A program made the position numbers and the translations under genes. 37,630 bases of DNA from Patescibacteria group bacterium (GTDB lineage: Bacteria; Patescibacteriota; Patescibacteriia; Patescibacteriales; WJLG01), in the NCBI GenBank assembly GCA_028716485.1, contig JAQUPS010000014.1, positions 1-37,630 of the forward strand. Reading direction: 5' to 3'. Numbering within the stretch: the first letter of the stretch is position 1; each line of letters begins with the position of its first letter. Positions 2,616 to 37,135 of the stretch are shown here, piece after piece. The notes under the pieces are model-generated. The model was given only the letters and a program-made list of their open reading frames with translations, did no database searches and was not told the DNA's origin.

Positions 2616-3359
2616 TTAAATCGCATTATTCAACTCTAAATTCAATTTTGCTTCATCATCCATGATTTTGTCCAATTTACCAGAGAGCGCCATCTCCTCC
2701 AATTCTTTATCTTTTTTTTGCAACGCAACCGCAGGTCTTAATAACTGAATTTGAATTATCTTAACTTTATTTTTTAAACAATCTTCTATTCCCAAAATAT
2801 ATTGTCTTTGATCTTCTTGAAAACTTTTTATCGTCTCGTCTTTTGACTTAATATTCACTTTCAAATCTTCAATATTATATTTATATAAAATTCGAGGGGA
2901 TTCCTCGTACATCTCCAGCCAGGAATTAAATTTTTTAGCCGCAGAAACTGCAATATCAATTTGCTGTGAAATAATATGATGAAAATTCTTACTTAAAACA
3001 AACAGTCTTTCTTCGTTAATATATATTTTATTAAATTCCGCCGGAAGAATTACATTTAATTCTGCTGCCCTATTTTTTAGTATCTCCCCAGATTTATTTA
3101 CAAAATTTTTAAGATTGCCAATTGAATCTTGACACTCCCTGGAAGCCCTGAAAAAAATATTCTCGACTTCTTTTTTATCCCCCTTTATCTGACTATTTTT
3201 TTCAAAATGTGTTTTTATATACCACAATCCGATAGATGATATTATAGCCAAAAAAGAACCGACGATCGAGCCAATTAATGTCTGATATTCTTTTATAAAT
3301 TCTGCTAAATTCATACGGCATTTTTCATTTAGACTTTTCTGGGGCGGTGTTATAACCAT
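2616..3359 (-). CDS. membrane-anchored coiled-coil protein (247 aa)
   Basis: One N-terminal membrane segment (residues about 25-48, LIGSIVGSFLAIISSIGLWY) is followed by about 190 charged, helical residues that read as coiled coil. There is no known catalytic motif. Starting at 3359 gives a GAGG ribosome site 6 nt before the ATG but overlaps the nuclease gene by 35 nt. The alternative ATG at 3314 avoids overlap but has no ribosome site, so I prefer 3359 with translational coupling. Position between a PD-(D/E)XK nuclease and a DUF4209/HEPN-like protein suggests an accessory membrane component of the island. Whether it senses, tethers or disrupts the membrane cannot be told from sequence. Confidence 0.75.
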   Translation of the reverse strand: MVITPPQKSLNEKCRMNLAEFIKEYQTLIGSIVGSFLAIISSIGLWYIKTHFEKNSQIKGDKKEVENIFFRASRECQDSIGNLKNFVNKSGEILKNRAAELNVILPAEFNKIYINEERLFVLSKNFHHIISQQIDIAVSAAKKFNSWLEMYEESPRILYKYNIEDLKVNIKSKDETIKSFQEDQRQYILGIEDCLKNKVKIIQIQLLRPAVALQKKDKELEEMALSGKLDKIMDDEAKLNLELNNAI

Positions 3360-4098
3360 TTATTGCCTCAACATAATTACAGTAATCACAATCAGTACTA
3401 GCATCAGGAATTTTTTTGGCGTTGAGACATTTGTGAGCTTCAATGATGGTTTTTTCTACCCAGGAATCATCGCCCTCATAAGGGATTAAGGTAACGTCGA
3501 ATTCAAGCTTAGCATCAAATGCCTTGCGGTCTGTCTGACCGTTACAATAGACAAAATAACCGGTATCAGAAACTTTATAGCCATTTTGTCTCAAAAGCCA
3601 CTGGTAAACCTCCATCTGTCTTTTATAACCAATCTGCCAATCTTTATTTAGTTCTGTAATATCTTCGTCTTTAGAGGTTGCCTTATAATCTACAACGATG
3701 TACTCCCCTTTTGAATTCTGCCAAAGGTCATCAATAGCGCCAAATATCAATAAATTAGTTGGCTTATGCAAATATTGAACCCCGGTGAAATTATGGCGCC
3801 ATTTATCTAAATCCTTATGGGCAATGGGAGTGGCGTCAATGCCGTATTTTTCAATCAAAGGATGTTTAGTCCCCTTTGCGCGATGAATATCAAATTCCAA
3901 CTTTAAAAGATGGTCAACGGCCGAATTCAACGCGAAAGGAAAGCCTGGCGGCCGACCGACGCCAAGTCGACGATCATAATAAAAACATCTTGGACAATTC
4001 AAAAAAAGATCAATTTTTGATCTTGATAATTTAAAAGATTCTGACGATTCCGGATCATACAAGCCCTTAATTCTTTGTGAATTATAGTATTCGGACAT
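3325..4098 (-). CDS. PD-(D/E)XK nuclease, Cas4/RecB-like (257 aa)
   Basis: The N-terminus reads SRSKIDLFLNCPRCFYYD, the typical opening of the RecB/Cas4-like PDDEXK family. The catalytic core is visible as GAIDDLW followed by VVDYKAT (D ... D-x-K), and a downstream Q-x-x-x-Y stretch (QMEVYQW) matches motif III of such nucleases. Two Cys pairs, CPRC near residue 35 and CDYC near residue 243, could hold an iron-sulfur cluster as in Cas4 and AddB. The gene starts 6 nt after the RT stop and overlaps the next gene by 35 nt, so it belongs to the same operon. Related stand-alone proteins occur widely in Patescibacteria. Here its position beside a reverse transcriptase suggests processing of cDNA or attack on foreign DNA, which is inference. 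Confidence 0.85.
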   Translation of the reverse strand: MSEYYNSQRIKGLYDPESSESFKLSRSKIDLFLNCPRCFYYDRRLGVGRPPGFPFALNSAVDHLLKLEFDIHRAKGTKHPLIEKYGIDATPIAHKDLDKWRHNFTGVQYLHKPTNLLIFGAIDDLWQNSKGEYIVVDYKATSKDEDITELNKDWQIGYKRQMEVYQWLLRQNGYKVSDTGYFVYCNGQTDRKAFDAKLEFDVTLIPYEGDDSWVEKTIIEAHKCLNAKKIPDASTDCDYCNYVEAINGYNTAPEKSK

Positions 4099-4104
4099 AA
4101 AATT

Positions 4105-5496
4105 TTAAATTTTTTTTAATTTTTCTATACGCTTCAAAATAAGACGACTATCAATTTTACTTTTCCCGTAAAAATTCAAAAGTTCGTAATGAAAAGCGTT
4201 GTGAATCAATTTTCGTGAAAGAGCATTGAGCTTTTTTATAAATTCCTGCCTGTCGTTTTTGTTGAGCAATTTGTAGATTTTTTCTAAATGAATAGCCCTT
4301 GCATTTTTTAAATATTCATCATCCAGATAACAACTTATTAACTTCGTTTTTTTAGAAAAATCTATGCTTTTCAAAGCCGAGCAAAACAAAGCCTTGTTTA
4401 ACAATGGAGCTCCATTATCTTTTATATTTATTAAACCTGACTTATCCAATAAATCAAAATAATAATCAACAAATTGCTCAACTTTCTTTTTATCTTTTCT
4501 GTCTTTATCTTCTTTCAGCAAATCAAAAATCTTGAAAGACCGATTATTGATTAAATCTTCTGTCGTCCTCACTTTAACCTTTTTCTGATTGACCGATAAA
4601 CCAAGTGAATTTAGTTTTTTGGATACCTTAAAAATCAAGATGTGAAGTTTATTTTTATCTTCCGCAAAAAGAAACTGATCGTCGGCATATCTCAAATACT
4701 TACATTTATTTTGCTTGCATAATTCATAAACAATTTTGTCATATGGTTGTAAATAAAAATTGGCAAGAATACGCGAGCAGTCGCCCATTGCGTCTTGTGG
4801 TATGCCGACCGTTTGCTTATTGTATAAATTTGTATTTCTATTCCAATAGTTCAAAAAATGAAATAACAAACTGACAATATCCGCGTGTTCTTCGTTGACA
4901 ATCTCCCTGATACGCATTTCTAAAATATCCAAACGGATTGAGTCGTAGTAATTGGCTATGTCTAACTCGGCAACATATTTAAAATTCCTTGCTTTTGCAG
5001 AAGCGTATAATTTCGCGTTCAAATCGCCATACGCCCTAGCCCAAGCCGCCGGATTGAAAGAATATTCGCTAACTGATATGCCGTGAAGTTCGGCGATAAA
5101 ATCTTCGCGGCGATTAAAATTCTTTCGTCTTTTTTCCATTTCATCATCTTCGCCCTTTCTCATCAAACCGCCCAATGTCCAGCCGCCAAAGGTATTTTCT
5201 ACGCGGTTATAAGCGATTTTGTCCTCAATTTTTTTGATGCAGTAATAATAAACGCAGTAATCTTTCAAAGTAAAAACCGGCACAATTCTAGTAACGCCAT
5301 TACCTTTATCTCGGTCAATATAACAACGAGGAACGGACGGATAATATGTTCGTTCCTCAATTTCCTTATATAATTTTTCTACAAAAGAATCTTTATCGGT
5401 TTTATTTTTTGGTATATCAAAAAAGGACTGCTTGTCCTGAAAAGCTCGCCAAAAATCACGATTGAAATATTGTTTGAATTTTTTAAGATCATCCAT
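4105..5496 (-). CDS. defence-type reverse transcriptase, Abi/UG-like (463 aa)
   Basis: The RT palm is clear. Motif A is AELDIANYYDSI (D179), motif C is LRYADDQFLF (D272, D273), and motif B is GIPQDAMGDCSRILANFYL at about 231-249. The usual PQG of motif B is PQD here. An N-terminal extension (residues 1-170) precedes the palm, and a helical tail of about 170 residues without endonuclease or maturase motifs follows, as in Abi/UG defence RTs. The ATG lies inside the end of the HsdM/S gene (8-nt overlap), so the two are translationally coupled. There is no room for a retron-type ncRNA next to the gene within the coding block. It is not a DGR RT, which has a different motif B and YMDD-type motif C. 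Exact class needs a phylogeny. Confidence 0.9.
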   Translation of the reverse strand: MDDLKKFKQYFNRDFWRAFQDKQSFFDIPKNKTDKDSFVEKLYKEIEERTYYPSVPRCYIDRDKGNGVTRIVPVFTLKDYCVYYYCIKKIEDKIAYNRVENTFGGWTLGGLMRKGEDDEMEKRRKNFNRREDFIAELHGISVSEYSFNPAAWARAYGDLNAKLYASAKARNFKYVAELDIANYYDSIRLDILEMRIREIVNEEHADIVSLLFHFLNYWNRNTNLYNKQTVGIPQDAMGDCSRILANFYLQPYDKIVYELCKQNKCKYLRYADDQFLFAEDKNKLHILIFKVSKKLNSLGLSVNQKKVKVRTTEDLINNRSFKIFDLLKEDKDRKDKKKVEQFVDYYFDLLDKSGLINIKDNGAPLLNKALFCSALKSIDFSKKTKLISCYLDDEYLKNARAIHLEKIYKLLNKNDRQEFIKKLNALSRKLIHNAFHYELLNFYGKSKIDSRLILKRIEKLKKI

Positions 5497-7411
5497 AGAT
5501 TGACTTTATGATTGCCCCTATCTTTCCTTTGTTTTTTGCTATCTTCTCTGTATATTCTCTATTTTCTCGGTTATATCTTTCAATATCATTCATTATCTTT
5601 TGTTGATCTTTAATAGACGGCAACGGAATTATGATATTCCCAACATCAGAGGTTTTTAATGAGGGGTAATCTTGATCATTAGTTAAGCTGCGAGCATCAA
5701 TACTAAGCAATATATGAAATAAGAAACTCGGAATAATTTTAGCTTCATCCGGAATTATCGTTGCGAGATGGCTTGATACATATCCAGACACACCCAACAT
5801 GGCTCTATGATTTAGAAATGTTGAAGCACCGCTTTTCGGAAAAAGAATTGTATTTTTTGGGAATAATTTTAAACCTTTTATGCCCGCTTCATTTAAATTA
5901 TCCCGGGAAGAAATTAAATTATCAGAGATATGAACAGCACCAACATCTGATGTTCTAAAAAATGGAAATTTACCATTTTCAAATAATTTTTTTTCTTGGG
6001 GCGCAGAATTACCTGAGCCAATTTCAGCGACCTCATTAACCCTAACTAATTGCCATTTTTTGTTAGTCCTCTTAATCGTGCGGTAAGTACTACCGGTCAA
6101 GTTTAGAGATTTGTTATTAACAATATCGGCTCTCGCCAAAGTGAAATAAGAAATTTCGTTAAATGTTTTTTGTTTTCCATTTTGTAATTCCGATCTATAA
6201 GACTTCAGTATTTCAATAGTGTTTGGAATGTCGTTCTCTTTAACTGGGCTTGGATTTGTTGTAAGAGAAAATCCGTGATTTTTAATCTCATAAAATAGAA
6301 TATTTTCTGGCTTTAATGTTTTATCTAAAAATATGATATTCGTTTTTTTACCAGAATATGGGTTAAAAACTCCAGATGGTAATGAAACAACGCACCAAAG
6401 ACCATTATCTAAAAATAATTTGCGGATTGCTTGATGTCCTTTGCTTCCGTCAAAAATTATTCCTTCCGGCACAATTACGCCCATTCGTCCGTTGAAATTG
6501 AGATGATGAACCATATACTCGCAAAACAATACTTCAGTTTTGTTTGAAGTAATCGCGAAACGAGAATGTCGGCGCGCGCCGCCTTTCGGTGTAATAAACG
6601 GCGGATTGGCGACAATAATATCAAAAGTGTGTTGCCAAAGATTTTCATTGAGAAGCGTGTCGTTTTCAGAAACATTCGGCACTTTCAATCCGTGTAGATA
6701 AAGGTTAGCGAGAGAAAACTTGACCATTAACGGCTCCATATCCCAACCGAAAATAGTTTCGTTGTAGAGCTTTTTTGTTTGTTCCGGATTGAGTTTTAAC
6801 CTGCCTTTTTCATCTGTGTATTTTCCTTTGAGATAATTAAAAGCGGCGACTAAAAATCCAGCCGTTCCGCAAGCCGGATCGGCAATTTTTTCGCCGATGT
6901 TCGGATCAACGACACGAACAATAAAATCAATAATATGTCGTGGTGTGCGAAATTGTCCCAGCTCGTTTTGCGTTCCTAAAATTGGCAATAAGCTTTCATA
7001 AAAATCGCCTAAATCCAAACCATCGGAAAATTTGTCATTCAAGTATTGCAGAAATGAGCTTAAAACTTTTGGCTCAAGGATTTTCAAATATGAACGCTCA
7101 AAAACTTTGCGGACAGTCGGATCTATATGGGGATTTTTGTAAAGCGATTCAACGGCTTCGCGACATTCTTTGACTAATTCTTCGCCACTATGACGCATTA
7201 AAACATCGAAGTGATAACGTTCCCATGCGCCGGTAAAAATCAATTCTTTTGAGCCAATCCGAACAAGATCATCATGCTTTCTAGATAATTGCTTCAAAAA
7301 CAGAAACAAAGTTATTTGCTCTATTTGATCAGTCGGCATTGCCACCTTGCCAACAATGATTTGGCGCAAGTCGGCAATGACTTTATTTAATTCTTGTGGT
7401 TTAGTTGACAT
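5489..7411 (-). CDS. hsdM: type I restriction-modification methylase fused to a half specificity subunit
   Basis: Residues 1-440 are an HsdM-type N6-adenine methylase: a helical N-domain, motif I DPACGTAGF (178-186) and motif IV NPPF (269-272). From about residue 450 a single HsdS-type target recognition domain begins (WQLVRVNEVAEIGSGNS), with the typical SLKTSDVGNIIIPLPSIKDQQKI close at about 585-606 and then a helical spacer to residue 640. A normal HsdS has two recognition domains; one fused half would be expected to dimerise and read a palindromic, interrupted site. The gene overlaps hsdR by 11 nt and the RT by 8 nt. No separate hsdS exists in the window. It protects host DNA and gives HsdR its target. 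Confidence 0.93.
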   Translation of the reverse strand: MSTKPQELNKVIADLRQIIVGKVAMPTDQIEQITLFLFLKQLSRKHDDLVRIGSKELIFTGAWERYHFDVLMRHSGEELVKECREAVESLYKNPHIDPTVRKVFERSYLKILEPKVLSSFLQYLNDKFSDGLDLGDFYESLLPILGTQNELGQFRTPRHIIDFIVRVVDPNIGEKIADPACGTAGFLVAAFNYLKGKYTDEKGRLKLNPEQTKKLYNETIFGWDMEPLMVKFSLANLYLHGLKVPNVSENDTLLNENLWQHTFDIIVANPPFITPKGGARRHSRFAITSNKTEVLFCEYMVHHLNFNGRMGVIVPEGIIFDGSKGHQAIRKLFLDNGLWCVVSLPSGVFNPYSGKKTNIIFLDKTLKPENILFYEIKNHGFSLTTNPSPVKENDIPNTIEILKSYRSELQNGKQKTFNEISYFTLARADIVNNKSLNLTGSTYRTIKRTNKKWQLVRVNEVAEIGSGNSAPQEKKLFENGKFPFFRTSDVGAVHISDNLISSRDNLNEAGIKGLKLFPKNTILFPKSGASTFLNHRAMLGVSGYVSSHLATIIPDEAKIIPSFLFHILLSIDARSLTNDQDYPSLKTSDVGNIIIPLPSIKDQQKIMNDIERYNRENREYTEKIAKNKGKIGAIIKSIYG

Positions 7412-9902
7412 AGGCGATATTAGATTCCTTTATATAACTCACTACTTTTTCCACTTCGTCACGCTTTATTCTGCCAACTGGGACAATTCCACCGAAAGTT
7501 TGATCATCAAGCACGCCCAAATTCCCTTTTTCCAGCGCGTGGCGATAATCTGGGTTGGTAAGGTAGCATTGATAAATATTTTCAAAATAATTCAGTTTTT
7601 CGTAAGGCGTGTCGGAATAGACAAGTTTAAATTCTTCAAAGCCCTTATTCATGCGGTCGTATTTATCCGGCAATCGCTCAATAACACCAGCGGCTTTGCG
7701 TAGAAAATCAGCGAGGCCGTTTGAGGTTTGGTATGCCTTGCGCAACGATTCCAAGGAAAAATAATATTTTGGTTTTTCAAGTAATTTTTCTTTAGCAATG
7801 CGCTCGGTTTCATCCACATCGTTATTTTCAAGAGCAGATTCAAAATCTTTGTCTGTTCCCATTAAATCTTTAACAGATTGCTCAAAATGATTTCGATATG
7901 CTTCGCGATCAACTTTCATGCAATCCTCGCCGATTTGGATTTGGTTATCGCGCACCAAAAAATCCGTACCAATATAAATAAACTTGCCGTGAGAGACGGC
8001 TATTGGCATTTCCATTTGAACGCCCAGAGTTTCTTGAGATTTCATGGATTCATATTGAGCCGTTCGTTCTTTTATAATCAACTCGTATTTATCTTGCTGT
8101 TTTTGTTCTTCGGTTTTACCAGCTAAAAATAGCGGTTCGGAATAATCATATCTTTCTTCAAAATATTCACAAACGCCAAAAAAATCTATTAGATGATAAA
8201 AATCTTTTTCAACGACTTGGCCGGTAAGTTCATTTTTAAAAGCATGTCTTCTTGTTCCTCTACCTTTGATTTGAACGAAATCGCTAACCGAAAAGATCGG
8301 TTTCATTAAAACAACATTCAACAGGTCAGTGCAGTCATAACCAGTTGTCATCATATTGACGGTAACGGCTATACGAGTATTGCCCAATTGATTATTACGG
8401 TATTTTTTCGTAAGTTCCTGACTGCCAACAACATTGCTCGTAATTTGACGAGCAAAAACTCCGCTGTGTCCAGAATATTTTCCGGGCCAGTTTTTGTCGG
8501 CCGCTTCGTTCAAAATGCGAGCAATTTTTGAGGCGTGGTTTTGTGATATACAGTAAATAATTGATTTGCCGATTTCTCCGGTGATCGGATCTTTCTTTGC
8601 AGTTTTCAAAAACTCATCAACGATCAAATGATTCAAACTATCGGAAAATACCTTGCGTTCAAGCTGGCGAATTTTGAAAGTTTCTTCCGCTTGCTCGCCG
8701 GTTGTTTCGTCAATAAATGCGTCCTGCCAGCCTTCCTCTGACTGCATTTGATTAGTTTTATCGCTTCGCTTATCGTAAATAACTGGATTAACAAGATACG
8801 GCGGCTTATGCGTGACTGCTTCTTTCAAATCAAAACGAAAAGTCGGTTCACCTGATTCACAACCAAAAGTTTTATAGGTATCTTGCAAAACTCTCTTTTC
8901 CAATTTGCGGGGGTCGGTTTCAACAAGCTTCTTTTCATCAATTCCTTTGAGATAATCTTTTGGCGTGGCGGTAAGGCCGATTTTCGCGCCTTGAAAATAC
9001 TCAAAAATTGCCCGATTATTTCCGTAAATACTGCGGTGGGCTTCATCGGAAATAAGCAAATTAAAATCAAACTGACCAAAGTATTTCAAAAAGTTTTGGT
9101 TGTAAGACAAACTTTGAATTGTCGCAATAACTACTTGATTTTGAAGCGCTTGCTCTTTGTTTTCCTTGAAAATAGCGATGTTGTATTCCTTGAGATAGGA
9201 GCTGATATTTTGACTGGCTTGGTCGGCAAGCTCTATACGGTCAACGAGGAATAAAATTCTGTTCGCATTGCCGGTTTTTAAAAATAGCTTGATAAGCGCG
9301 GCCGCCAGCAAGGTTTTTCCGGTTCCAGTTGCCATTTCCAAAAGGAAACGACGGTTGCCGTCATCGAACTTACTTGAAATGGTATTGATAGCGTCAAGTT
9401 GGTAATCTCTCAAAAATTTTCTATCTACTTCGGCAACAGCGCCCTGACTTTGCACAATCCAATCATCTTTTATATCAATGCCGGACAAAGACATTGCGGT
9501 TGTTGCGGTTAGCAACTTCGTTAAATCTTTCTGTGTTGGGAATTTTAAAATTATTTTTTCGGCATTTTGATTCAAATCCCAAAAATAATGTGTATCACCG
9601 TTGCTCAAAATAACAAAACGACATCTTTTTGCTTTGGCGTAATCCTCGGCTTGTTTTTTTCCGACAACAGGATCCTTGCTTCCTGATTTTGCCTCCAAAA
9701 CGGCAAGAGGAAATCCTTTTGTATCTAGAAGTAAATAATCAATAAAACCTTTACCATGCTCAAAATCATCGCCCAAACTTTCTAAATTAACATTGCCCTC
9801 AACTTCAATATTTCGAGCGCCAATTTTGTCGTCAAAAAATCTCCAGCCAGATTCTTGGAGTAGATTGTTTATTTTTAATCTTGCCTTAGCTTCTTTTTGC
9901 AT
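7401..9902 (-). CDS. hsdR: type I restriction endonuclease motor subunit
   Basis: I start at the ATG (9902), giving 833 aa; the ORF track starts 16 codons earlier at a TTG with no support. The N-terminal nuclease core is GFIDYLLLD...AVLEAKSG (D55, E70-x-K72). A superfamily 2 helicase follows, with RDYQLDAI as Q-motif, Walker A ATGTGKT (near 192), DEAH (286-289) and QIKGRGTRR as motif VI, then a helical C-terminus. The length matches the shorter EcoEI-like HsdR proteins. It is the first gene of the operon. Together with the fused HsdM/S it should translocate and cut unmodified DNA. No disabling change is seen in the motifs. Confidence 0.95.
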   Translation of the reverse strand: MQKEAKARLKINNLLQESGWRFFDDKIGARNIEVEGNVNLESLGDDFEHGKGFIDYLLLDTKGFPLAVLEAKSGSKDPVVGKKQAEDYAKAKRCRFVILSNGDTHYFWDLNQNAEKIILKFPTQKDLTKLLTATTAMSLSGIDIKDDWIVQSQGAVAEVDRKFLRDYQLDAINTISSKFDDGNRRFLLEMATGTGKTLLAAALIKLFLKTGNANRILFLVDRIELADQASQNISSYLKEYNIAIFKENKEQALQNQVVIATIQSLSYNQNFLKYFGQFDFNLLISDEAHRSIYGNNRAIFEYFQGAKIGLTATPKDYLKGIDEKKLVETDPRKLEKRVLQDTYKTFGCESGEPTFRFDLKEAVTHKPPYLVNPVIYDKRSDKTNQMQSEEGWQDAFIDETTGEQAEETFKIRQLERKVFSDSLNHLIVDEFLKTAKKDPITGEIGKSIIYCISQNHASKIARILNEAADKNWPGKYSGHSGVFARQITSNVVGSQELTKKYRNNQLGNTRIAVTVNMMTTGYDCTDLLNVVLMKPIFSVSDFVQIKGRGTRRHAFKNELTGQVVEKDFYHLIDFFGVCEYFEERYDYSEPLFLAGKTEEQKQQDKYELIIKERTAQYESMKSQETLGVQMEMPIAVSHGKFIYIGTDFLVRDNQIQIGEDCMKVDREAYRNHFEQSVKDLMGTDKDFESALENNDVDETERIAKEKLLEKPKYYFSLESLRKAYQTSNGLADFLRKAAGVIERLPDKYDRMNKGFEEFKLVYSDTPYEKLNYFENIYQCYLTNPDYRHALEKGNLGVLDDQTFGGIVPVGRIKRDEVEKVVSYIKESNIAYVN

Positions 9903-9980
9903 ACATTGAAATATTATTTTCCCACTTTCTAAAACAAAAGTCAATCCCAATTTTGCCTTATTTTACTATCTTTATCAAAC

Positions 9981-10095: not shown

Positions 10096-11445
10096 ATGCA
10101 ACAACAAGCAACAAACACGGTGGTATTATCCGCAAGCCTAGGGCGAAATTTGAGGTCAAATTCAGTCCCATTGGCGACTCCGGTGAAATACTGCCTCTAC
10201 GCGAGAAAATCAAGCGAATCCGAGGAAAGACAGGTTCTGTCGATTGATAGCCAAATCAAAGAGATGCTTCAGCTGGCAGAACGTGAAAATTTAGAAGTTG
10301 TAACTATGAAGCAGGAATCTCATTCAGCCAAGGAAACAGGTCAAAGACCGATTTTCAATGAGATTATCGAAGAGTTAAAATTGGGGAAATTTAATGGCAT
10401 TCTAACTTGGGCGCCGGATCGTATTTCCAGAAATGCCGGGGACTTAGGCAGAATCGTGGATTTGATGGACTCGGGGGCGTTAAAAGAAATACGAACTTTC
10501 GGACAAAGTTTTAGCAATAACCCAAATGAAAAGTTTTTATTAATGATTTTAGGATCACAAGCAAAACTGGAAAACGACAATCGTGGAGTGAACGTAAAAC
10601 GCGGATTACGAGCTAGGGTTGAGATGGGACTCTGGCCCGGCATGGCACCAGTCGGTTATTTAAATCAAAAAATGATGGATAAAAAATGCCAGATTATCCA
10701 GGATCCGGCGCGAGCGCCAATCGTGAAGCAAATGTTTGAAAAAGCGGCTTTTGAAAAATGGTCGGTAAGAAAAATTTATAACTGGTTAAAATTTGAGTTG
10801 AATTTCAAAACTGTTGGCAATCATAATATGTCAGCCGGCGGTATTCATCGGATGCTGGTCAATCCACTGTATTACGGTGTCTTCGAATATCCTAAAAATT
10901 CCAGCAACTGGTATCAAGGAAAACATGAACCAATTATCAGCAAAGAATTATACGATCAAGCAGTCCAGCAACTTAAACGAGATAATATTCAACGACAAAG
11001 TCATGAGTTCGCCTATACCAAATTAATGGTCTGCGGCCTCTGCGGATCTAGCATCTCGGCTGAAGAAAAATACAAACTGCTGAAAGACGGAACAACGGCC
11101 AAATATATTTATTACGGCTGCGGCCGATCAAAAGACAGGAACTGCAAAAGTCATTATCTGCGAGAGAATGAACTGGTTGAACAATTAATCAAACTATTTA
11201 ATCAAATCGAAATAAACGACTTTGGCATCAAAATTAAATTCGAAGAAGAATTGAAAAAATTCAATAAATTCCAGAAAGGCGTACTTGGCATATCAAATCC
11301 GGAAACAAAACATCGGGATATTGATATGAAAACTTACGCCAGTTACACCCTAAAAAATGGAACTAATGAAGAAAAACGAGAGCTAATGGGATGCTTTAAG
11401 TCAAAAATAAAAATCACCAAAGGAGTAGTGACAATTGAAAAATAA
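10096..11445 (+). CDS. large serine recombinase / integrase (449 aa)
   Basis: The resolvase-type catalytic domain starts near residue 31 with KYCLYARKSSESEERQ; Ser39 in the R-x-S string is the likely nucleophile. TWAPDRISRNAGDLG is the conserved helix that follows. A recombinase domain (GLWPGMAPVGYLNQ, WSVRKIYNWL) comes next, then a zinc-ribbon (CGLCGSS ... YYGCG ... C) and a helical end. At 449 aa it is on the short side for large serine integrases but common for Patescibacteria. It reads away from the restriction operon, about 190 nt from hsdR, and points at tRNA-Ser. It is the obvious candidate for moving the defence island, although no attL/attR pair was found by eye. No clear ribosome site precedes the ATG. 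Confidence 0.92.
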   Translation: MQQQATNTVVLSASLGRNLRSNSVPLATPVKYCLYARKSSESEERQVLSIDSQIKEMLQLAERENLEVVTMKQESHSAKETGQRPIFNEIIEELKLGKFNGILTWAPDRISRNAGDLGRIVDLMDSGALKEIRTFGQSFSNNPNEKFLLMILGSQAKLENDNRGVNVKRGLRARVEMGLWPGMAPVGYLNQKMMDKKCQIIQDPARAPIVKQMFEKAAFEKWSVRKIYNWLKFELNFKTVGNHNMSAGGIHRMLVNPLYYGVFEYPKNSSNWYQGKHEPIISKELYDQAVQQLKRDNIQRQSHEFAYTKLMVCGLCGSSISAEEKYKLLKDGTTAKYIYYGCGRSKDRNCKSHYLRENELVEQLIKLFNQIEINDFGIKIKFEEELKKFNKFQKGVLGISNPETKHRDIDMKTYASYTLKNGTNEEKRELMGCFKSKIKITKGVVTIEK

Positions 11446-30287: not shown

Positions 30288-31589
30288 CTAACTAATGCTA
30301 ACAAATTCCTTTCTAATCACTGCTTCAAATATCCTTATAAAGGACTTTATCGCGGAATCACCCGCAATATTTTTCGTTAATTCTTTGATAGTTAACGGTA
30401 GAGATTTTTCCATCCAGCATATGAAACGAAACATTTCTTCGTTGACAACCATTAAATTACCGCCTCCCCTTTTCGATGTAACGGAATAATACCCGTCGAA
30501 TTCATTGCGCCAGCGAAGTTTTCCTCTGAAATTCACGATGGAATTTTCGTTAAAAATAACATTTCTCCGCTTTTTTTCAAAAAAATTAACTGGGCCAATA
30601 GTTAATCGATCCGGTTCATCCAATCGTCCCGTAACCGCCATAGCGTTCGTGCGACAAGCGCCGCGACAAGATTCAACGGCCGCGCAACTCTTACAAATGC
30701 CGGGAACCGTACCATTGTTTCTGTAAACGGCCATCTTATCCCAAATCGACTCCATTGATTCTTTAAATAAGTTGCCGTAAACAATGGGATTGTGAGGACA
30801 AGGACGGACATCTCCAATATTGGAAATATTAACAGTCATTCGGCCAGCCTGACAAGTTCGGTACTTAAGCAAGGGACTACTCCTCTCCCACCACCAAACC
30901 GGAAAAAAACATTTAGGCAGCGCGACCAGAGTGTCAACTTCCAAACCAAGGACATCGGCGCACCAACGTAAATCTTCCAATAAAACAATAGTCTGTTTTT
31001 TACTGAGCAAACCATCTAAGTCAGGATGCTCAACATTCAAACAAGCCGGCGTAACAGAGAAACGTTTAACGCCCATTTTTTTCAAATCTCTCGCGGTACT
31101 TCTGATAAGCGGAAAATTTGTTTGCGTCACAACCATGTTAACGAGACATGAAAAATTGGCATCCAACAACATCCTTAACTTTTGGGTAAACTTGTCGTAA
31201 TCGCCAAGGCGCGTAATCTCTCTGTAAATATCCGGCTCGCTTGCCGGGCACGATACCAAAAAACTATCAATATCCGATTCTTTCAATGCCGAAATAATCT
31301 GAGGGGTAAGAAGTAATAGATTAGTATTGACTGATACATACATTCCGGCCGTTTTTGCCAACTCCGCCGCCCTGATTAAAGTTTTTGGACGCGCCAATGG
31401 CTCTCCGCCGGTGATAACAAGCGAGTAAATCCGGTTATCTATCATTTTCCGTATCACCTGAAGAACTGCGTCATCGCTCAAATCATTGGACGCCGGCATA
31501 TTGTCAGTGTCAAAATGGTAACAATGTTTGCAACGCAAATTGCACACATCGGTGATCTCAACCTGTGCCTGAAATGGCAGCCTTAACAT
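30288..31589 (-). CDS. radical SAM/SPASM peptide maturase 1 with RRE-like tail (433 aa)
   Basis: The radical SAM motif is CNLRCKHCY (C16, C20, C23), followed by GGEPL (61-65). The SPASM region begins at TCQAGRMTVNISNIGDVRPCPHNP and ends with CKSCAAVESCRGAC, enough Cys for two auxiliary clusters. After SPASM, about 80 residues (MVVNEEMFRFICWMEKSLPLTIKELTKNIAG) look like a small winged-helix domain of the PqqD/RRE type that binds leader peptides. AAAGGAG lies 6 nt before the ATG. It is the third gene of locus 1, behind the precursor and a peptidase. It probably installs thioether or C-C cross-links on the Cys-rich precursor. The RRE call is by pattern only. Confidence 0.92.
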   Translation of the reverse strand: MLRLPFQAQVEITDVCNLRCKHCYHFDTDNMPASNDLSDDAVLQVIRKMIDNRIYSLVITGGEPLARPKTLIRAAELAKTAGMYVSVNTNLLLLTPQIISALKESDIDSFLVSCPASEPDIYREITRLGDYDKFTQKLRMLLDANFSCLVNMVVTQTNFPLIRSTARDLKKMGVKRFSVTPACLNVEHPDLDGLLSKKQTIVLLEDLRWCADVLGLEVDTLVALPKCFFPVWWWERSSPLLKYRTCQAGRMTVNISNIGDVRPCPHNPIVYGNLFKESMESIWDKMAVYRNNGTVPGICKSCAAVESCRGACRTNAMAVTGRLDEPDRLTIGPVNFFEKKRRNVIFNENSIVNFRGKLRWRNEFDGYYSVTSKRGGGNLMVVNEEMFRFICWMEKSLPLTIKELTKNIAGDSAIKSFIRIFEAVIRKEFVSIS

Positions 31590-31651: not shown

Positions 31652-32269
31652 TTATTCTATGAATTTAGAAAAATAATCCTTGCTAAACTTAAAACCGTAT
31701 ATTTTGTAAAATTTAGCGGCAAATTGATGTTTGTTGGAAATACACTCCATGCTGTTTATTAATTCTGTAAATTTTTTCTTACCGAATTTTTTCAATAAAA
31801 ATTCAACCCAATATTGGCCAACCATGTATATATCGGAATTTGTCTTCTCAAAATAAGAAAAAACATCTAAAAGTTTGTCTTTATACCCCCTCGACAATAC
31901 TAATTTTTTACCCGAGATATAACAAGCCAGCCCTTCATTTAACCATGAAGGATAATGGCTCTTGGTTATTCGGGTATAAAACGCATGACAGTATTCATGT
32001 TTTAAGATGCGCCGGAACTCATCTTCTTTATGGCTGGATTCTTTTTCGAAAACCATAGGATTTAAAAGATAAATATTGCCATGTTTAAAAGCTCCGACAA
32101 ACCAATTTTCTGTTTTTTTATCAAAAATAAAATCCAAATCCTTTCGGTGGTCAACTAAAAATAACAATGGCTCATCGGCCTTAAGATTAAAAAAGACGCT
32201 CAATTCTTTGTTGATTATTTTGAGAAATTTTTCCAGCCCCTTGTTAAAATTGGCCGATTTTACTTTCAA
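31652..32269 (-). CDS. HExxH metallopeptidase, MA-clan type (205 aa)
   Basis: LKHEYCHAFYTRI gives the zinc motif HExxH and WLNEGLACYISG, about 20 residues on, the third zinc ligand Glu. Together they mark a gluzincin of the peptidase MA-like type. There is no signal peptide, so it probably acts in the cytoplasm. The start is a TTG with no clear ribosome site; an in-frame stop lies upstream and the next ATG is too late. It sits between the precursor (with a strong hairpin in the 90-nt gap) and the radical SAM enzyme. Removing the leader from the modified precursor is the obvious role, which is inference from context. Confidence 0.88.
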   Translation of the reverse strand: MKVKSANFNKGLEKFLKIINKELSVFFNLKADEPLLFLVDHRKDLDFIFDKKTENWFVGAFKHGNIYLLNPMVFEKESSHKEDEFRRILKHEYCHAFYTRITKSHYPSWLNEGLACYISGKKLVLSRGYKDKLLDVFSYFEKTNSDIYMVGQYWVEFLLKKFGKKKFTELINSMECISNKHQFAAKFYKIYGFKFSKDYFSKFIE

Positions 32270-32306
32270 ATACTTTTTTATATATTTATGAATTTAATTT
32301 TTAAAG

Positions 32307-32341
32307 AGGTCTTCATGAATTTGCAATTTCCATGAAGACCT
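32307..32341 (-). terminator. partial terminator / attenuator hairpin behind precursor 1
   Basis: AGGTCTTCATG pairs perfectly with CATGAAGACCT (11 bp). Only a weak A/T tail follows on the minus strand, so it may lower but not stop transcription into the peptidase and maturase, or protect the precursor mRNA 3' end. Confidence 0.65.
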
Positions 32342-32358
32342 GGCGCGATTAGCGCGCA

Positions 32359-32472
32359 TTAATCGTTGCTGCCGCTTTCACATTCACACCCAGAACCGCC
32401 ACTCCCGCTGGAATCGCAGTTGCACGCGGCCGAAAAAGTGGCGATTTCCATTTTGTCAAAATCGAACGGCAT
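32359..32472 (-). CDS. RiPP-like precursor peptide 1 (37 aa)
   Basis: It starts at the ATG at 32472, chosen because AAAGGAG sits 7 nt upstream; the track's 62-aa version begins at an unsupported TTG. The peptide has a short leader-like part (MPFDFDKMEIATFSAA) and a core with CNCDSSGSGGSGCECESG: four Cys as two CxC pairs around a Gly/Ser run, with acidic residues. It is followed by an HExxH peptidase and a radical SAM/SPASM enzyme and preceded by a TTGACA promoter. Cys in such cores are usual thioether donors for radical SAM maturases (sactipeptides, ranthipeptides). I know no family with this exact pattern. Confidence 0.82.
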   Translation of the reverse strand: MPFDFDKMEIATFSAACNCDSSGSGGSGCECESGSND

Positions 32473-32606
32473 AATATTACTCCTTTCTTCGCCCATTTCT
32501 TCAAAACAGATTCCTTTGTCGAGATTCTTATGAGCCTCGCTTAGCAAAATGACATGAAATCTGATTAATTATTATGGGGCTTTTATTGAAAAGGTCATGA
32601 GTAGAA

Positions 32607-32633
32607 ATTATCATATCGTCTAATTTCTGTCAA
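32607..32633 (-). promoter_or_regulatory. promoter of RiPP locus 1
   Basis: A perfect TTGACA (32633-32628) with GATAAT 15 bp downstream within TATGATAATTT, and a very A/T-rich stretch upstream. The transcript would have a leader of roughly 120 nt before the precursor. Confidence 0.65.
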
Positions 32634-32663
32634 ATTAAATTTTTCACATGACTAAAAATTTTC

Positions 32664-32702
32664 AAAAAGAAAAAGGCTTGCAACTGGAATGTTGCAAGCC
32701 TT
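32664..32702 (-). terminator. duplicated terminator behind the tail pseudogene
   Basis: AAGGCTTGCAAC / GTTGCAAGCCTT and TTTTTCTTTTTG on the minus strand; identical hairpin to 35810-35848. Confidence 0.85.
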
Positions 32703-32723
32703 AATAAATGAGCAAGCTGAAAT

Positions 32724-32873
32724 TTATCTGACGATAAATTTTTCAGCCTTAACGTTGCCGCTTACCGACCGGGACACCGTAAGGTAAGTTCCGGAAGGAA
32801 GGGAATGAGCGGAGAAGGAATTGGCGGCGATTTTCAGGCCGCGAAGGTCGAAAGCGCCGACGACTAAGGAGTT
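32724..32873 (-). pseudogene. duplicated C-terminal tail of the propeller protein
   Basis: On the minus strand this reads VVGAFDLRGLKIAANSFSAH...LPSGTYLTVSR...KAEKFIVR and then stop, almost the same as the end of the propeller protein at 35870. DNA identity continues through the terminator with only scattered changes and a 3-nt gap. The frame opens after a TAG at 32874 and has no start codon or ribosome site, so it is a remnant of a duplication and not a gene. Confidence 0.85.
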
Positions 32874-32928
32874 CTAATACCGGGAGTAAGGCAATTTTGG
32901 CGAACAGCGGTTGCGCTGTTGCCGAAAA

Positions 32929-33108
32929 TTATTTTGTGGCATTTTTTGTTACACCTGAATCAACCGATGAATTATTATCTCCGGCATGGGTCGATTTGTT
33001 AGTTACTGATTTTGATACTTCTAAATTAACAATAATGCCCAATACGCCAATTAACAAGGTTATCACAACAATGACCAGACCTTGCTTAACATCTTTTAAT
33101 GTAATCAT
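32929..33108 (-). CDS. possible small membrane protein (59 aa)
   Basis: This frame is below the track cutoff. It reads MITLKDVKQGLVIVVITLLI..., with one clear membrane helix at about residues 10-28, then a polar Ser/Thr/Asn-rich tail likely outside the cell. No strong ribosome site is present, which lowers confidence. The opposite-strand frame at 32897-33115 is its shadow. It lies between the tail pseudogene and the HELLH gene. Function is unknown. Confidence 0.5.
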   Translation of the reverse strand: MITLKDVKQGLVIVVITLLIGVLGIIVNLEVSKSVTNKSTHAGDNNSSVDSGVTKNATK

Positions 33109-33177
33109 CTTTTAAAGTGAATAGGGCGCCGCTGGATGCCTGCGCCCCCGACATTTTACATTGTTTAATTTAGGAAA

Positions 33178-33206
33178 TTGCTTTAGTGAAGAATAACTGC
33201 TAAAAT
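33178..33206 (+). promoter_or_regulatory. promoter of the HELLH gene
   Basis: TTGCTT and TAAAAT with a 17-bp spacer, ending about 18 nt before the ATG at 33225; the leader would be very short. Confidence 0.6.
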
Positions 33207-33224
33207 AGGAATATAAACAAGAAG

Positions 33225-33929
33225 ATGAAACGTCTAATATTCAAAAAATACGACACCGAGATAGATACCTCAAATATCAAAGAAAGGTTATTTGGGAAAG
33301 TTAATTTTGGTCAAAAAATTAACAATAACATATACCCTTTCACGTTGGATTTTATAAAAAAATTAAAACTTCAACCCCCAAAAAAACAGGACAAAATTAT
33401 CAGGAAATTTTTAGTTTCAAAACAATTACAAATAATCCTGGAGAACCAAAGGAAGCTGACTAACAAATTGTGGTCTCGAAAACTGGAATCTGAATATTTT
33501 AACTCGACTAAAAAATTTTTAAATATAACTCTTGACGAAAAAGACTGTTTTAAAGCTTATTTTACATACATACTGCTATGCGCCTATTATGTAGATAAAA
33601 AATATTTTTTTATTAGTGCTTGGAATAGTCCATTGTACCATATTAACATAATCGCTCATGAGCTATTGCATCTGCTTTTTATTAAGAATTATAAAAAGTA
33701 TTGCATCAATCAAGGACTGACTGAAAATCAATTTGAAAATTTAAAGGAAGCGTTGACTTTTATTTTAAATGAAAAGGAATATAAAAAGATTGTTATCGTC
33801 AGAGATAATGGTTATCCAGATCATAAAAAGTTTAGGCAATTTCTAAGCAAACAATGGAATAAAAAAAGAAATTTTTCGGAATTACTGGCTTACGGATGCG
33901 AATATTCAAAGAAACACTTCTCTAAATAA
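33225..33929 (+). CDS. HExxH metalloprotease-like protein (234 aa)
   Basis: INIIAHELLHLLF carries a zinc-type HExxH inside a hydrophobic helix; LKEALTFILN about 28 residues later may give the third ligand Glu. The rest is very Lys/Asn/Ile-rich and unlike any family I can name. There is no signal peptide. It has its own promoter and converges on the second radical SAM gene with a shared terminator. A role in leader removal for the neighbouring RiPP is plausible but unproven. Shares the motif with the locus 1 peptidase but no obvious overall similarity. Confidence 0.8.
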   Translation: MKRLIFKKYDTEIDTSNIKERLFGKVNFGQKINNNIYPFTLDFIKKLKLQPPKKQDKIIRKFLVSKQLQIILENQRKLTNKLWSRKLESEYFNSTKKFLNITLDEKDCFKAYFTYILLCAYYVDKKYFFISAWNSPLYHINIIAHELLHLLFIKNYKKYCINQGLTENQFENLKEALTFILNEKEYKKIVIVRDNGYPDHKKFRQFLSKQWNKKRNFSELLAYGCEYSKKHFSK

Positions 33930-33937
33930 TTGAATTT

Positions 33938-33968
33938 AAAAAAGGATGGATTTGGTCCATCCTTTTTA
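33938..33968. terminator. bidirectional terminator between HELLH gene and maturase 2
   Basis: GGATGGA / TCCATCC stem with A run before and T run after, between convergent stops. Confidence 0.88.
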
Positions 33969-33969
33969 T

Positions 33970-35295
33970 TTAAATCTGAGCAATTGCCTCCTCCAGTATT
34001 GCCCGAACCATTTTTCTGGCAAAAATGCAGAAGTGATGATCAGTTTTCCAGATTGTTCCGTATTTTATAAATGAGGTGTATGGACAACCGCCGCCGCATA
34101 ACCCCAGGGCCAGGCATCTTTCGCAAGCCTTTATTGTTAAAGGCGATCTTTTTTGCCACTCTTTAACTGTCGGACTTGCCCAGTAATCAAATTTTTGATC
34201 ATGAACATCCCCGAAGAAAAAATTGTTCATACCCGTGCCTTCGTGACAAAGACCTACTTTTCCCGAAGGCGAAACAACAATTTGTCTTCCAGGAGCGGCG
34301 CAATTATATGGCAGCATTCTCTGGCTTAGGAAAGTTTTGTATCTCTTGAGAAAAGTGTCATTTTGGATGCCGCAATCCTTAGTTAACCTAAAATGGCTGG
34401 CGATATTATTAGAATACCGTTTAACTAATGCAACATCCGACGTCATCGCGTCAGTATCAATTAGACTATTGAAGCCTATTGAATAGATGCCGAACTCATC
34501 GTTCAACCATTTAGAAAACTCGACCATGCTATCAACGTTATGCTCAAGGATGGTGCAGGATATCCCGACGTTTATTTGTGCTTGGCGCAAAGTCTTGATT
34601 GTTTTTAAAACTTTATCGAAAGTTCCTTTACCCCTCCTGTCTTTTCGATAAAGATCGTGTACGTCGCGCCTGCCATCAAGAGAAATCCCTACTTGAATAT
34701 TATGCTTCTTGATACTCTCGATGAGACTATCGTTCATAACAGATCCGTTGGTAATCAAGTTGAGCTGAATTTCCTTGGGAAAATTAGACTTTATTTTTTC
34801 AATATAGTCTAAACTTTCTTGGAACACAAGGTGATTAAGCAAGGGCTCTCCGCCAAAGAAGAAAATGGAATAAGGTTTTTTATCTAAAAACTTATCTCTG
34901 TCATTTCTTGATACGGTTTTTAGAAACAACTCGATTGACATCTTTATAGTTTCCAAATTCATTTCGCTAAATTTATAACTGCCTTTCATCGTATTTCTGA
35001 TAAAACAATAAGAGCAGTCAAAATTACAGCGATCAGTTAGTAGGAGAAATAAGGTGTTTACATATCTGACGTCTACGTACACCCTTCTTACGGAATTGAG
35101 AAATTCAGTATCCTCTCTGCTGGAATCAACGAGCATATTGAACTTTTTTAAGACTTTTATCTGTGCGCTACTAAGACTTAAAAAATCAAAATTACTGCCG
35201 GACTTTTTTAATTTGAAAATTTCAAAAGTCAAAGTATGGAACAAATAGCTCACATTCCTTATTTTCAACACTTTAACAAACCGTGAGAGACGCAT
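33970..35295 (-). CDS. radical SAM/SPASM peptide maturase 2 (441 aa)
   Basis: An N-terminal region of about 85 residues (FEIFKLKKSG...LSSAQIKVLKKFNMLV) has the helix-turn pattern of leader-binding domains that precede many radical SAM RiPP enzymes. The cluster motif is CNFDCSYCF (C90, C94, C97), then FFFGGEPLL, and the C-terminal SPASM reads CAAPGRQIVVSPSGKVGLC ... CERCLALGLCGGGCPY ... C. It resembles anSME-like peptide maturases. GGGAG lies 6 nt before the ATG. It follows precursor 2 by 74 nt with a strong hairpin between. It probably cross-links the Cys of precursor 2. It differs in domain order from maturase 1. Confidence 0.92.
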   Translation of the reverse strand: MRLSRFVKVLKIRNVSYLFHTLTFEIFKLKKSGSNFDFLSLSSAQIKVLKKFNMLVDSSREDTEFLNSVRRVYVDVRYVNTLFLLLTDRCNFDCSYCFIRNTMKGSYKFSEMNLETIKMSIELFLKTVSRNDRDKFLDKKPYSIFFFGGEPLLNHLVFQESLDYIEKIKSNFPKEIQLNLITNGSVMNDSLIESIKKHNIQVGISLDGRRDVHDLYRKDRRGKGTFDKVLKTIKTLRQAQINVGISCTILEHNVDSMVEFSKWLNDEFGIYSIGFNSLIDTDAMTSDVALVKRYSNNIASHFRLTKDCGIQNDTFLKRYKTFLSQRMLPYNCAAPGRQIVVSPSGKVGLCHEGTGMNNFFFGDVHDQKFDYWASPTVKEWQKRSPLTIKACERCLALGLCGGGCPYTSFIKYGTIWKTDHHFCIFARKMVRAILEEAIAQI

Positions 35296-35315
35296 TTTAT
35301 TCTCCCAAATGAAGC

Positions 35316-35341
35316 GGGGAAGGTCATTATTAACCTTCCCC
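35316..35341 (-). other. strong hairpin between precursor 2 and maturase 2
   Basis: GGGGAAGGT pairs with ACCTTCCCC across an AT loop. No T run follows on the minus strand, so it is not a plain terminator; it may stabilise the precursor mRNA or limit read-through translation. Confidence 0.65.
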
Positions 35342-35369
35342 TAAGTTGTTTTTTCCCGCATTTCCCGCA

Positions 35370-35477
35370 TTATTGCGGTCCGCAAGGAAAATTAACGCAG
35401 GCATCACATGAAAGCTGTTTTTTGCCGGTCAGCCGCTTTAAGAGCAGCTTCCGCTGTTTTTTACTCAGCGTTTTCAT
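35370..35477 (-). CDS. RiPP-like precursor peptide 2 (35 aa)
   Basis: This frame is too short for the ORF track. It reads MKTLSKKQRKLLLKRLTGKK followed by QLSCDACVNFPCGPQ: a basic, helical leader and a short C-terminal core with three Cys (C24, C27, C32). GGAGGGGGTGAG precedes the ATG and a TTGCAT-17-TATAGT promoter lies about 60 nt upstream, so expression is likely. The next gene is a radical SAM/SPASM enzyme. The leader/core split and the chemistry are inferred; the size, Cys placement and context are seen. Confidence 0.82.
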   Translation of the reverse strand: MKTLSKKQRKLLLKRLTGKKQLSCDACVNFPCGPQ

Positions 35478-35534
35478 TTTTCTCACCCCCTCCCTTTTGT
35501 TTAGATTAAAACGAACTATCCAATATTTATGCTT

Positions 35535-35563
35535 ACTATAGCAGATTTAGTGCTTTAATGCAA
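35535..35563 (-). promoter_or_regulatory. promoter of RiPP locus 2
   Basis: TTGCAT (35563-35558) and TATAGT (35540-35535) on the minus strand with a 17-bp spacer. Confidence 0.7.
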
Positions 35564-35630
35564 GGCTCACATAAAATTGTTCAAAATCATCTCGTATCTT
35601 TACCTCTTTGACTTAAACAAAAAACATAAC

Positions 35631-35699
35631 CTAATCATGTTCTTTGCCCTTGGCTAAATATAGCCAGCCACGGCAGTTTTTAAAAACGGCGAATTTCAC
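35631..35699 (-). CDS. possible 22-aa peptide
   Basis: A GTG start with AGAGGAGG only 5 nt upstream opens a frame reading MKFAVFKNCRGWLYLAKGKE and two more residues before TAG. The ribosome site is excellent but the promoter upstream is weak. It may be a real short peptide, a leader peptide for locus 2, or the decayed start of a lost gene. Confidence 0.4.
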   Translation of the reverse strand: MKFAVFKNCRGWLYLAKGKEHD

Positions 35700-35760
35700 G
35701 ATATCCTCCTCTTTGGTCTTCTCAAAGAAGAACTAGAATAATCTGCGATATGCATAGATT

Positions 35761-35795
35761 AAATCGGCAATATCATAATATTGCCGATTTTTATT
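35761..35795 (+). terminator. orphan terminator, plus-oriented
   Basis: AAATCGGCAATAT / ATATTGCCGATTT is a perfect 13-bp stem with a 4-nt loop, followed by T-rich sequence only on the plus strand. No plus-strand gene is visible upstream. Apart from the promoter and the 22-aa frame, I see nothing else in 35564-35760. Confidence 0.6.
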
Positions 35796-35809
35796 TCACC
35801 TAACTTATA

Positions 35810-35848
35810 AAAAAGAAAAAGGCTTGCAACTGGAATGTTGCAAGCCTT
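35810..35848 (-). terminator. terminator of the propeller gene
   Basis: AAGGCTTGCAAC / GTTGCAAGCCTT then TTTTTCTTTTTT on the minus strand, right after the stop of the gene at 35870. Confidence 0.9.
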
Positions 35849-35869
35849 AATAAATGAGCAAGCTGAAAT

Positions 35870-37054
35870 TTATCTGACGATAAATTTTTCAGCCTTAGTG
35901 CTGCCGCTTACCGACCGGGATACCGTAAGGTAAGTTCCGGAAGGAAGGGAATGAGCGGAGAAGGAATTGGCATTGGCGATTTTCCGGCCCTTGAGGTCGA
36001 AAATTCCGACAACTTTATAATCGCCGAGGGGAATGCTCTTGGCAATGAGCGGATTGCGGACGGCAGTGGGAGCGATATTTTCCACCCAGGCGTAATGGCC
36101 GGCGAAAATAACCTTGCCCTCATCGGTGATGGACAAAGCGGTCTGATCGCCCGGCGCCCAGGAATATGTTCCGGCAAGGACTCTGTCCTCGGTCATCGTG
36201 GACAAATCAACCTTGCCAAGTCCGCCTTGACTGGCCGAGAACCACAGGACATTATTTTTGTCTATCCTGATGTTCCCAAAAGCTCCGTCACCTGGCTGGC
36301 TCCTGGTAACAAGATGTTCTGTCCAGACCGTGCCGTCGAATTTAGCCAAACCATTATCATGTAAGTCTTTAAGGCCTATCAACATAGAATCTCCCACCAT
36401 TAATGTGTCAAAGACTTGCCGGCCAAAACTTAACCAAAAATTGCCGTCACGATCAACATCCCCGGAAACAGGGTTCCAAAACTGGGAATACTCAACCCAA
36501 TTTCCGGCGGTGAAACGATAAACTTTTTTGTTATTTATCGCCCAAATCTCGCCTTTCACCACCACTATCTGGTGGATGGTAACACTCAAAGCGTTTGTCC
36601 AGGTCGTGGGCTTGCCGTTGGCATCCAGCGCGGAAACGCCGACACCTTTGTCGGTGCCGACGATGATCCGGTTATTAACCGTGTCGGCATAGACAGTCTT
36701 AATGTAATTAGACGGCAGGCCGTCTTTTACAGAATAGACTGACGTGTCCAGCGAACCGAAACGGATAAGACCGCTATCAGTCGCCACCCAAATATCGCCA
36801 GCCTTACCAAAATCCAAATCGTAAGCGAAATAGTTCGCATAAGCACCCCGCAAAAGCGTAGACACAATAACAGTTTCATAAATAGTAACATCAATATCCC
36901 CAATATACACATTGCCATTGTGCTTCGCAACAAGAAACGGCCGATCCTCTGATACTTCCGTTTTCTTCCAAACTTTCGAGTCTGAAAAGTCCAGACCCGC
37001 CGACACGGTCGCGAACGCGACCAATGCTGCTAACATGGCTAAAACGAATTTCAT
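35870..37054 (-). CDS. secreted beta-propeller protein with sorting-like tail (394 aa)
   Basis: I start at 37054, where AAGGAGG lies 6 nt before the ATG; the track start is 19 codons too early. A signal peptide (MKFVLAMLAALVAFATVSAG) leads into propeller repeats of the two-component-regulator type: DIWVATDSGLIRFG, SVKDGLPSNYIKTVYAD, GTDKGVGVSA, and NVLWFSASQGGLGKVD. The last 50 residues (VVGIFDLKGRKI ... LPSGTYLTVSR ... KAEKFIVR) look like a type IX-type or FlgD-like C-terminal sorting tail. It is exported and probably cell-surface bound. The tail and terminator are duplicated at 32664-32873. A type IX system is not expected in a single-membrane Patescibacterium, so the tail may serve another anchoring route. 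Confidence 0.85.
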   Translation of the reverse strand: MKFVLAMLAALVAFATVSAGLDFSDSKVWKKTEVSEDRPFLVAKHNGNVYIGDIDVTIYETVIVSTLLRGAYANYFAYDLDFGKAGDIWVATDSGLIRFGSLDTSVYSVKDGLPSNYIKTVYADTVNNRIIVGTDKGVGVSALDANGKPTTWTNALSVTIHQIVVVKGEIWAINNKKVYRFTAGNWVEYSQFWNPVSGDVDRDGNFWLSFGRQVFDTLMVGDSMLIGLKDLHDNGLAKFDGTVWTEHLVTRSQPGDGAFGNIRIDKNNVLWFSASQGGLGKVDLSTMTEDRVLAGTYSWAPGDQTALSITDEGKVIFAGHYAWVENIAPTAVRNPLIAKSIPLGDYKVVGIFDLKGRKIANANSFSAHSLPSGTYLTVSRSVSGSTKAEKFIVR

Positions 37055-37135
37055 CAGAAACCTCCTTGGTTGTTGTTTTATTCCTTCTCTTTTGTTGTAA
37101 AGAACCCTCAATAAAGGGTAATTAATCTTATTGTA

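Follow-up and report, generated by a model that had tools for sequence, protein, structure and literature searches.

The window, meaning the whole stretch of 37,630 nucleotides that was analysed, is one contig (G000:C14) of a 1.15-Mb, 99 per cent complete genome of a Patescibacteria group bacterium; two Patescibacteria records (L013 and L014) are its close relatives. The part considered here, locus 2, comprises genes for a short Cys-rich peptide, a radical SAM/SPASM enzyme and an HExxH protein, all three enclosed by a direct repeat:

32656–32825, no strand assigned: left copy of the direct repeat, with the terminator and last codons of a propeller gene; a remnant of that end
33225–33929, plus strand: HExxH...E protein of 234 aa, a putative zincin peptidase, convergent with the maturase gene and without a Pfam or NCBIfam family
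33657–33671, plus strand: HELLH motif (H145–H149) of that protein, with the presumed third ligand E175 at 33747–33749
33970–35295, minus strand: radical SAM/SPASM peptide maturase of 441 aa (Radical_SAM PF04055, 73.9 bits; SPASM PF13186, 28.7 bits, cut-off 21.5)
34027–34302, minus strand: SPASM region with seven Cys (332, 350, 391, 394, 400, 404 and 423), all invariant in a seven-member alignment
35005–35028, minus strand: CNFDCSYC, the CxxxCxxC SAM-cluster motif (C90, C94 and C97), invariant in alignments A1 and A5
35071–35295, minus strand: N-terminal residues 1–75 of the maturase, of RRE-like topology (three strands, then helices) in the secondary structure of the AlphaFold2 model and in the full-length alignment with CteB
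35316–35341, minus strand: 11-bp hairpin between the peptide and enzyme genes, from a scan for terminator-like structures (−19.2 kcal/mol, z = −5.4)
35370–35477, minus strand: precursor peptide gene of 35 aa, translation MKTLSKKQRKLLLKRLTGKKQLSCDACVNFPCGPQ (ATG at 35477–35475; the stop codon ends at 35370)
35478–35499, minus strand: Shine-Dalgarno region, with CAAAAGGGAGGGGGTGAGAAAA ahead of the ATG
35802–35971, no strand assigned: right copy of the direct repeat, at the 3' end of the propeller gene (35870–37111)

A first-pass annotation, made from the sequence alone, had proposed that an untracked frame encodes a basic leader and a Cys-containing core, behind a strong ribosome site and promoter and directly before the radical SAM/SPASM gene. 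Most of this description holds. The peptide has a basic leader (approximately residues 1–22, with Lys or Arg at nine of the first 20 positions) and a Cys-rich tail (residues 23–35, SCDACVNFPCGPQ) that contains all three of its Cys, lacks Thr and has one acidic residue, an Asp immediately after a Cys. The purine-rich stretch GGGAGGGGGTGAG, immediately 5' of the ATG, provides the strong ribosome site, and an in-frame GTG three codons 5' of the ATG is a possible alternative start. The enzyme gene follows after 74 nt. The promoter was not borne out: positions 32200–35900 contain 12 promoter-like sites, as against 11.9 in shuffled sequences, and those on the minus strand ahead of the peptide match at 9 of 12 positions. 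Three features had been overlooked, namely the HExxH gene, the direct repeat and the hairpin at 35316–35341. The hairpin is possibly an attenuator or a processing site; its T-run is weak, which makes transcriptional read-through into the enzyme gene plausible.

The AlphaFold2 model of the maturase (pLDDT 85.5) has as its best PDB match CteB (5why/5wgg; E of approximately 5e-22, full-length, 20–21 per cent identity), whose entry title refers to 'thioether bond formation'; TigE (8vpo) comes next, followed by a sulfatase maturase and ChlB. Judged from their pattern, the seven SPASM Cys would hold two auxiliary [4Fe-4S] clusters, and the modelled N-terminal region may bind the leader. Among NCBIfam families, the best match is FibroRumin (TIGR04136), to which the enzyme is similar over its full length and which all seven enzymes of alignment A1 match. 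The window enzyme scores 209.8 bits, short of the cut-off of 400, whereas its relative in L004 scores 373 bits and the clostridial relative in L015 448 bits. PapB (NF047865) is next, with 163.4 bits against a cut-off of 340, and cyclophane families also score. Given the CteB-like match and these sub-cut-off scores, the maturase resembles these enzymes and probably works as they do, yet is classed in neither the FibroRumin nor the PapB family. Six true relatives, 29–36 per cent identical, were found among 98 genomes of the order; a search of the class added others and a profile search of the phylum four more. In the tree, the window maturase sits on a long branch, with a highest identity of 32 per cent and no supported sister, and we therefore rejected its placement. 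A search of viral contigs for radical SAM enzymes retrieved distant relatives only, none of them beside a member of the HExxH family.

A short Cys-rich peptide gene lies near the enzyme at all 21 family loci with readable flanks (the window counted), mostly upstream; L095, which starts at a contig end and has an unreadable flank, was left out of the tally. Enzyme homologs with no Cys peptide upstream had been named in advance as the finding that would speak against a radical SAM RiPP locus, and the count thus favours that proposal. In L004 and L007 the peptide gene lies downstream of the enzyme; L005 and L097 have it ahead of the HExxH gene, and L098 has it on the opposite strand. Example precursors are ...VAMTLKCGACASCTGGGGGQACKCTG... 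(L003), ...KCPKCCYTQCSRC (L014), ...DCVCYTSCTRCT (L101) and MKVRVASSKKKRRLLAGKISKDEGRNMAYECACSCACRSK (L290), the last being, by eye, the closest look-alike of the window peptide. Because some of these peptides were picked by inspection, and a few (L005, L006 and L291) are weak, without a good start codon or ribosome site, we also report an automatic count. Under a rule of three Cys in 15 aa and a Shine-Dalgarno match within 600 nt upstream on the same strand, a peptide is present at 10 of 16 loci, compared to 1 of 16 on the opposite strand and 0 of 16 within the gene.

The precursors share a leader motif, roughly hydrophobic-P/S-x-x-x-[DEQ]-[RFY]-x-x-[VIL]-[LRK], behind which the Cys-rich core is hypervariable. 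RiPP precursors typically pair a conserved leader with a core that is free to vary. With a leader profile built without the window peptide, the score of that peptide was reached by none of 500 full-length shuffles and by one of 500 leader-only shuffles; an earlier profile, before the peptides from the phylum were added, gave 3 of 2,000 and 28 of 2,000, respectively. No acidic partner or cross-link acceptor is conserved among the relatives' cores. A precursor in G150 (L182:5483–5701) has two tandem YCCEAAG units, and one in G087 (L005:3817–3909, before the HExxH gene) is its single-unit relative. A further conserved precursor family (...LCGVxGCCP..., then a conserved acidic tail) accompanies a related radical SAM clade of the same class (L105–L107, L110, L112, L114, L020 and L154).

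The protein encoded at 33225–33929 has the HExxH and downstream Glu pattern of gluzincin peptidases, and in those enzymes a Glu at this distance, 26 residues past the second His, usually serves as the third zinc ligand. Across 47 members of its family, H145 and E146 never vary, and conservation reaches at least 90 per cent for H149, E175 and Y197. Searches returned no Pfam family and no NCBIfam match at E ≤ 0.1. The AlphaFold2 model is mostly helical (pLDDT 81) and has no significant match in the PDB; selecase, M61 and PprI are among the top hits, all with E > 1. In the window the gene is on the strand opposite to the peptide and enzyme genes, so co-transcription with them is impossible. A second member of the family is encoded elsewhere in this genome (L148:3244–4005, contig G000:C22), with no radical SAM gene nearby.

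A gene of this family is located within 1.5 kb of the enzyme at 14 of 17 family loci (those with a profile score of at least 339 bits), but at none of 20 lower-scoring radical SAM loci (Fisher P-value = 1e-7). In a later draw from other genomes of the phylum, four of four loci had the HExxH gene and four of four a Cys peptide. The three family loci at which it was not found in the range read are L004, L007 and L094. In the other direction, a radical SAM gene lies within 3 kb of 24 of the 46 HExxH relatives examined and is missing near the other 22; since only about half are so placed, the family is not confined to RiPPs. The link between the two genes is strong, though not exclusive. The family also adjoins radical SAM enzymes of the type found at locus 1 (in G157, G226, G249, G263 and G409) and others accompanied by different Cys peptides (...GRPCCGGSCIGGNCK... 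and ...SCDCCDCADCSCDCVN). Among 80 public loci, four have HExxH relatives, all in Patescibacteria-type records.

We propose, with a probability of roughly 75 per cent, that locus 2 is a compact RiPP cassette built around a radical SAM enzyme, whose product is a leader-guided, thioether-bridged and possibly HExxH-trimmed peptide. Because relatives of the trio recur across distant genomes of the phylum, it is very probably a real and previously undescribed peptide-modifying system; what is observed are the three genes and that association, together with the Fe-S motifs, a motif shared by the leaders and a predicted fold like that of CteB. In such a pathway, the basic leader of the 35-aa precursor would be bound by the RRE-like N-terminal domain of the maturase. 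An acceptor residue would lose a hydrogen to the SAM radical and be bridged by the sulfur of a Cys via an auxiliary cluster, the route proposed for CteB-type enzymes. The cross-links would be placed on the Cys-rich C-terminus, most likely as Cys thioethers; alternatively, they could be C-C links, of the kind seen in the cyclophane families among the scoring matches. With no Thr and one acidic residue, the core preserves no Cys-Thr pattern of the SCIFF type and no Cys-Asp pattern of the PapB type, and relatives conserve no acceptor either. The HExxH protein, most likely a zinc peptidase, would then cut off the leader or trim the modified peptide, which would leave the cell through a general export route. 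Pfam scans of ten large proteins neighbouring the relatives' cassettes revealed no dedicated exporter, nor did those of the scanned neighbours in the window, and the genome's one C39 hit falls within an open frame of just 168 aa, located on another contig. For a presumed episymbiont, the product may be a peptide that is secreted, signals or antagonises: in tiny cells of this kind, with few biosynthetic genes, a conserved but patchily distributed cassette suggests that it acts where the cell meets hosts or rivals.

Other readings of the same genes deserve consideration. Most small fermentative Patescibacteria are anaerobic, which would argue against the HExxH step being oxidative, as does the conserved Glu 26 residues past the second His, which fits a gluzincin zinc ligand. 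HEXXH proteins encoded next to radical SAM enzymes in RiPP clusters, once called metallopeptidases, nevertheless turned out to be α-KG-dependent hydroxylases (PMC12636437), and the window protein could be assigned to no peptidase family; an oxygenase-like, α-KG-dependent modifying enzyme in an otherwise identical cassette is therefore conceivable. The lack of any NCBIfam match at E ≤ 0.1 counts against it too, and we regard this variant as unlikely. Less likely still is that the peptide is a small metal-binding or regulatory protein and the enzyme modifies something else. CxxC pairs do occur in metal-binding miniproteins, and the cores differ strongly among genomes, but the persistent pairing with the enzyme, the RRE-like domain and the conservation of the leader in front of a hypervariable core are better explained by a precursor. 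That the frame is a chance ORF can be largely dismissed. It is only 35 codons long, under the usual gene-calling size, but a comparable ORF (any of 24–85 aa that has a Shine-Dalgarno match and holds three Cys in a span of 15 residues) arose in just 19 of 2,000 dinucleotide shuffles of the 600 nt 5' of the enzyme, and the leader resembles precursors at other loci. Compared to the shuffles, conservation of the peptide is the stronger and decisive argument that the frame exceeds chance.

The first-pass annotation had further suggested that locus 2 and its neighbour, locus 1, form a two-peptide system. Locus 1 consists of a peptide gene (32359–32490), a gene for a Peptidase_MA-like HExxH protein (31652–32269) and a radical SAM gene (30288–31589), and is a real, though separate, RiPP-like trio with an acidic Cys peptide and a GeoRSP-like enzyme. 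Its HExxH protein, weakly Peptidase_MA-like, was considered as a member of the same family as the 33225–33929 protein and rejected, as the two show no similarity. The proximity of the loci, within 5.2 kb, speaks for a joint system, as does the finding that relatives of the 33225–33929 protein, which lies between the loci, adjoin both kinds of radical SAM enzyme (other locus-1-type enzymes adjoin either a Peptidase_MA-like or a 33225-type HExxH protein), so that one protease could serve both. However, locus 1 has an HExxH protein of its own, and the two loci carry separate conserved peptide families. The locus-1 trio is conserved alone in G076 (L275), in the same order, with a radical SAM enzyme 55 per cent identical and the peptide MNFNFNDMEVKTVSNLDLNETGCDSDGSESSGCDCDSPN; neither locus 2 nor a relative of the 33225–33929 protein was found in that genome. 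Among 381 genomes sampled from the class, the locus-2-type enzyme (E ≤ 1e-30) occurs in 27 and the locus-1-type enzyme (E ≤ 1e-25) in 13, with both in three (Fisher P-value = 0.056). Those three are G000, G072 and G140, of which the latter two have them on different contigs and G140 has a distant relative as its locus-2 match, so that the window alone unites both on one contig. The repeat around locus 2 also suggests a separate arrival. We consider a two-peptide system improbable.

The two copies of the repeat, 170 nt long and 96 per cent identical, are the only ones in the genome, and their sequence covers a terminator hairpin and the codons for the C-terminus of a propeller protein that looks secreted. 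G001 and G002, the only same-genus and same-family genomes compared, contain no member of the HExxH family, no locus-1 enzyme and no close relative of the locus-2 enzyme. This absence and the repeat fit, and suggest, a separate and recent acquisition of locus 2. G001, the sole other genome of the genus, lacks both cassettes and has only a propeller protein that is 32 per cent identical, so that the comparison yielded no clean empty site.

Known systems resemble the cassette in its parts. CteB, the SCIFF maturase, and ranthipeptide maturases including PapB likewise combine radical SAM and SPASM domains with an RRE, for which the window enzyme has an RRE-like candidate region, and act on a Cys-rich substrate, as is presumed here; they are the closest solved structures. 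The low identity to CteB and the sub-cut-off PapB score set the window enzyme apart, and the cores lack the conserved Cys-X3-Asp of PapB, whose substrates repeat Cys-X3-Asp/Glu (CX3D in PMC9413430). The HExxH neighbour, seen only in Patescibacteria-type records, distinguishes the cassette from FibroRumin. The α-KG-dependent HEXXH enzymes ChlH, BpmH, PflC and PosC are likewise encoded next to the radical SAM enzyme of a RiPP pathway or within a RiPP cluster of another kind (PMC12636437), but the window protein, with its conserved distal Glu, has no NCBIfam match. The locus-1 enzyme has GeoRSP (TIGR04303) as its best NCBIfam match, at 106 bits against a cut-off of 400, and differs in its acidic CxC peptides and HExxH neighbour. 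RiPP clusters of CPR bacteria were reported in 2022 as graspetides, with their function left open (PMC8939145); these rely on ATP-grasp ligases, in contrast to the radical SAM enzyme and different precursors of locus 2. In a literature search that left most subscription journals outside, we found neither a radical SAM Cys-peptide system described for CPR bacteria nor the name 'FibroRumin'. The parts are of known kinds; as far as could be checked, the novelty lies in their repeated association with an HExxH family that has no assignment.

More tentatively, and with slightly less than even confidence, we suggest that a single undescribed HExxH family is paired, across the phylum, with Cys-rich precursors and with radical SAM maturases of several unrelated types (FibroRumin-like, GeoRSP-like and others). 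It would supply either a maturation peptidase common to these systems or a new enzyme that modifies peptides, and would spread in movable cassettes like the repeat-flanked locus 2. Little is known of RiPPs in Candidate Phyla Radiation bacteria, and with three small genes only, the cross-link chemistry and the role of the HExxH protein are open to direct test.

Elsewhere in the window, positions 3325–9950 hold a defence-like operon, in which a UG13b-group reverse transcriptase (465 bits) and a Cas4-like PD-(D/E)XK nuclease are joined to type I restriction-modification genes; beside it are a recombinase-like gene (10096–11445) and a PDC-S39-like gene (754–2556).
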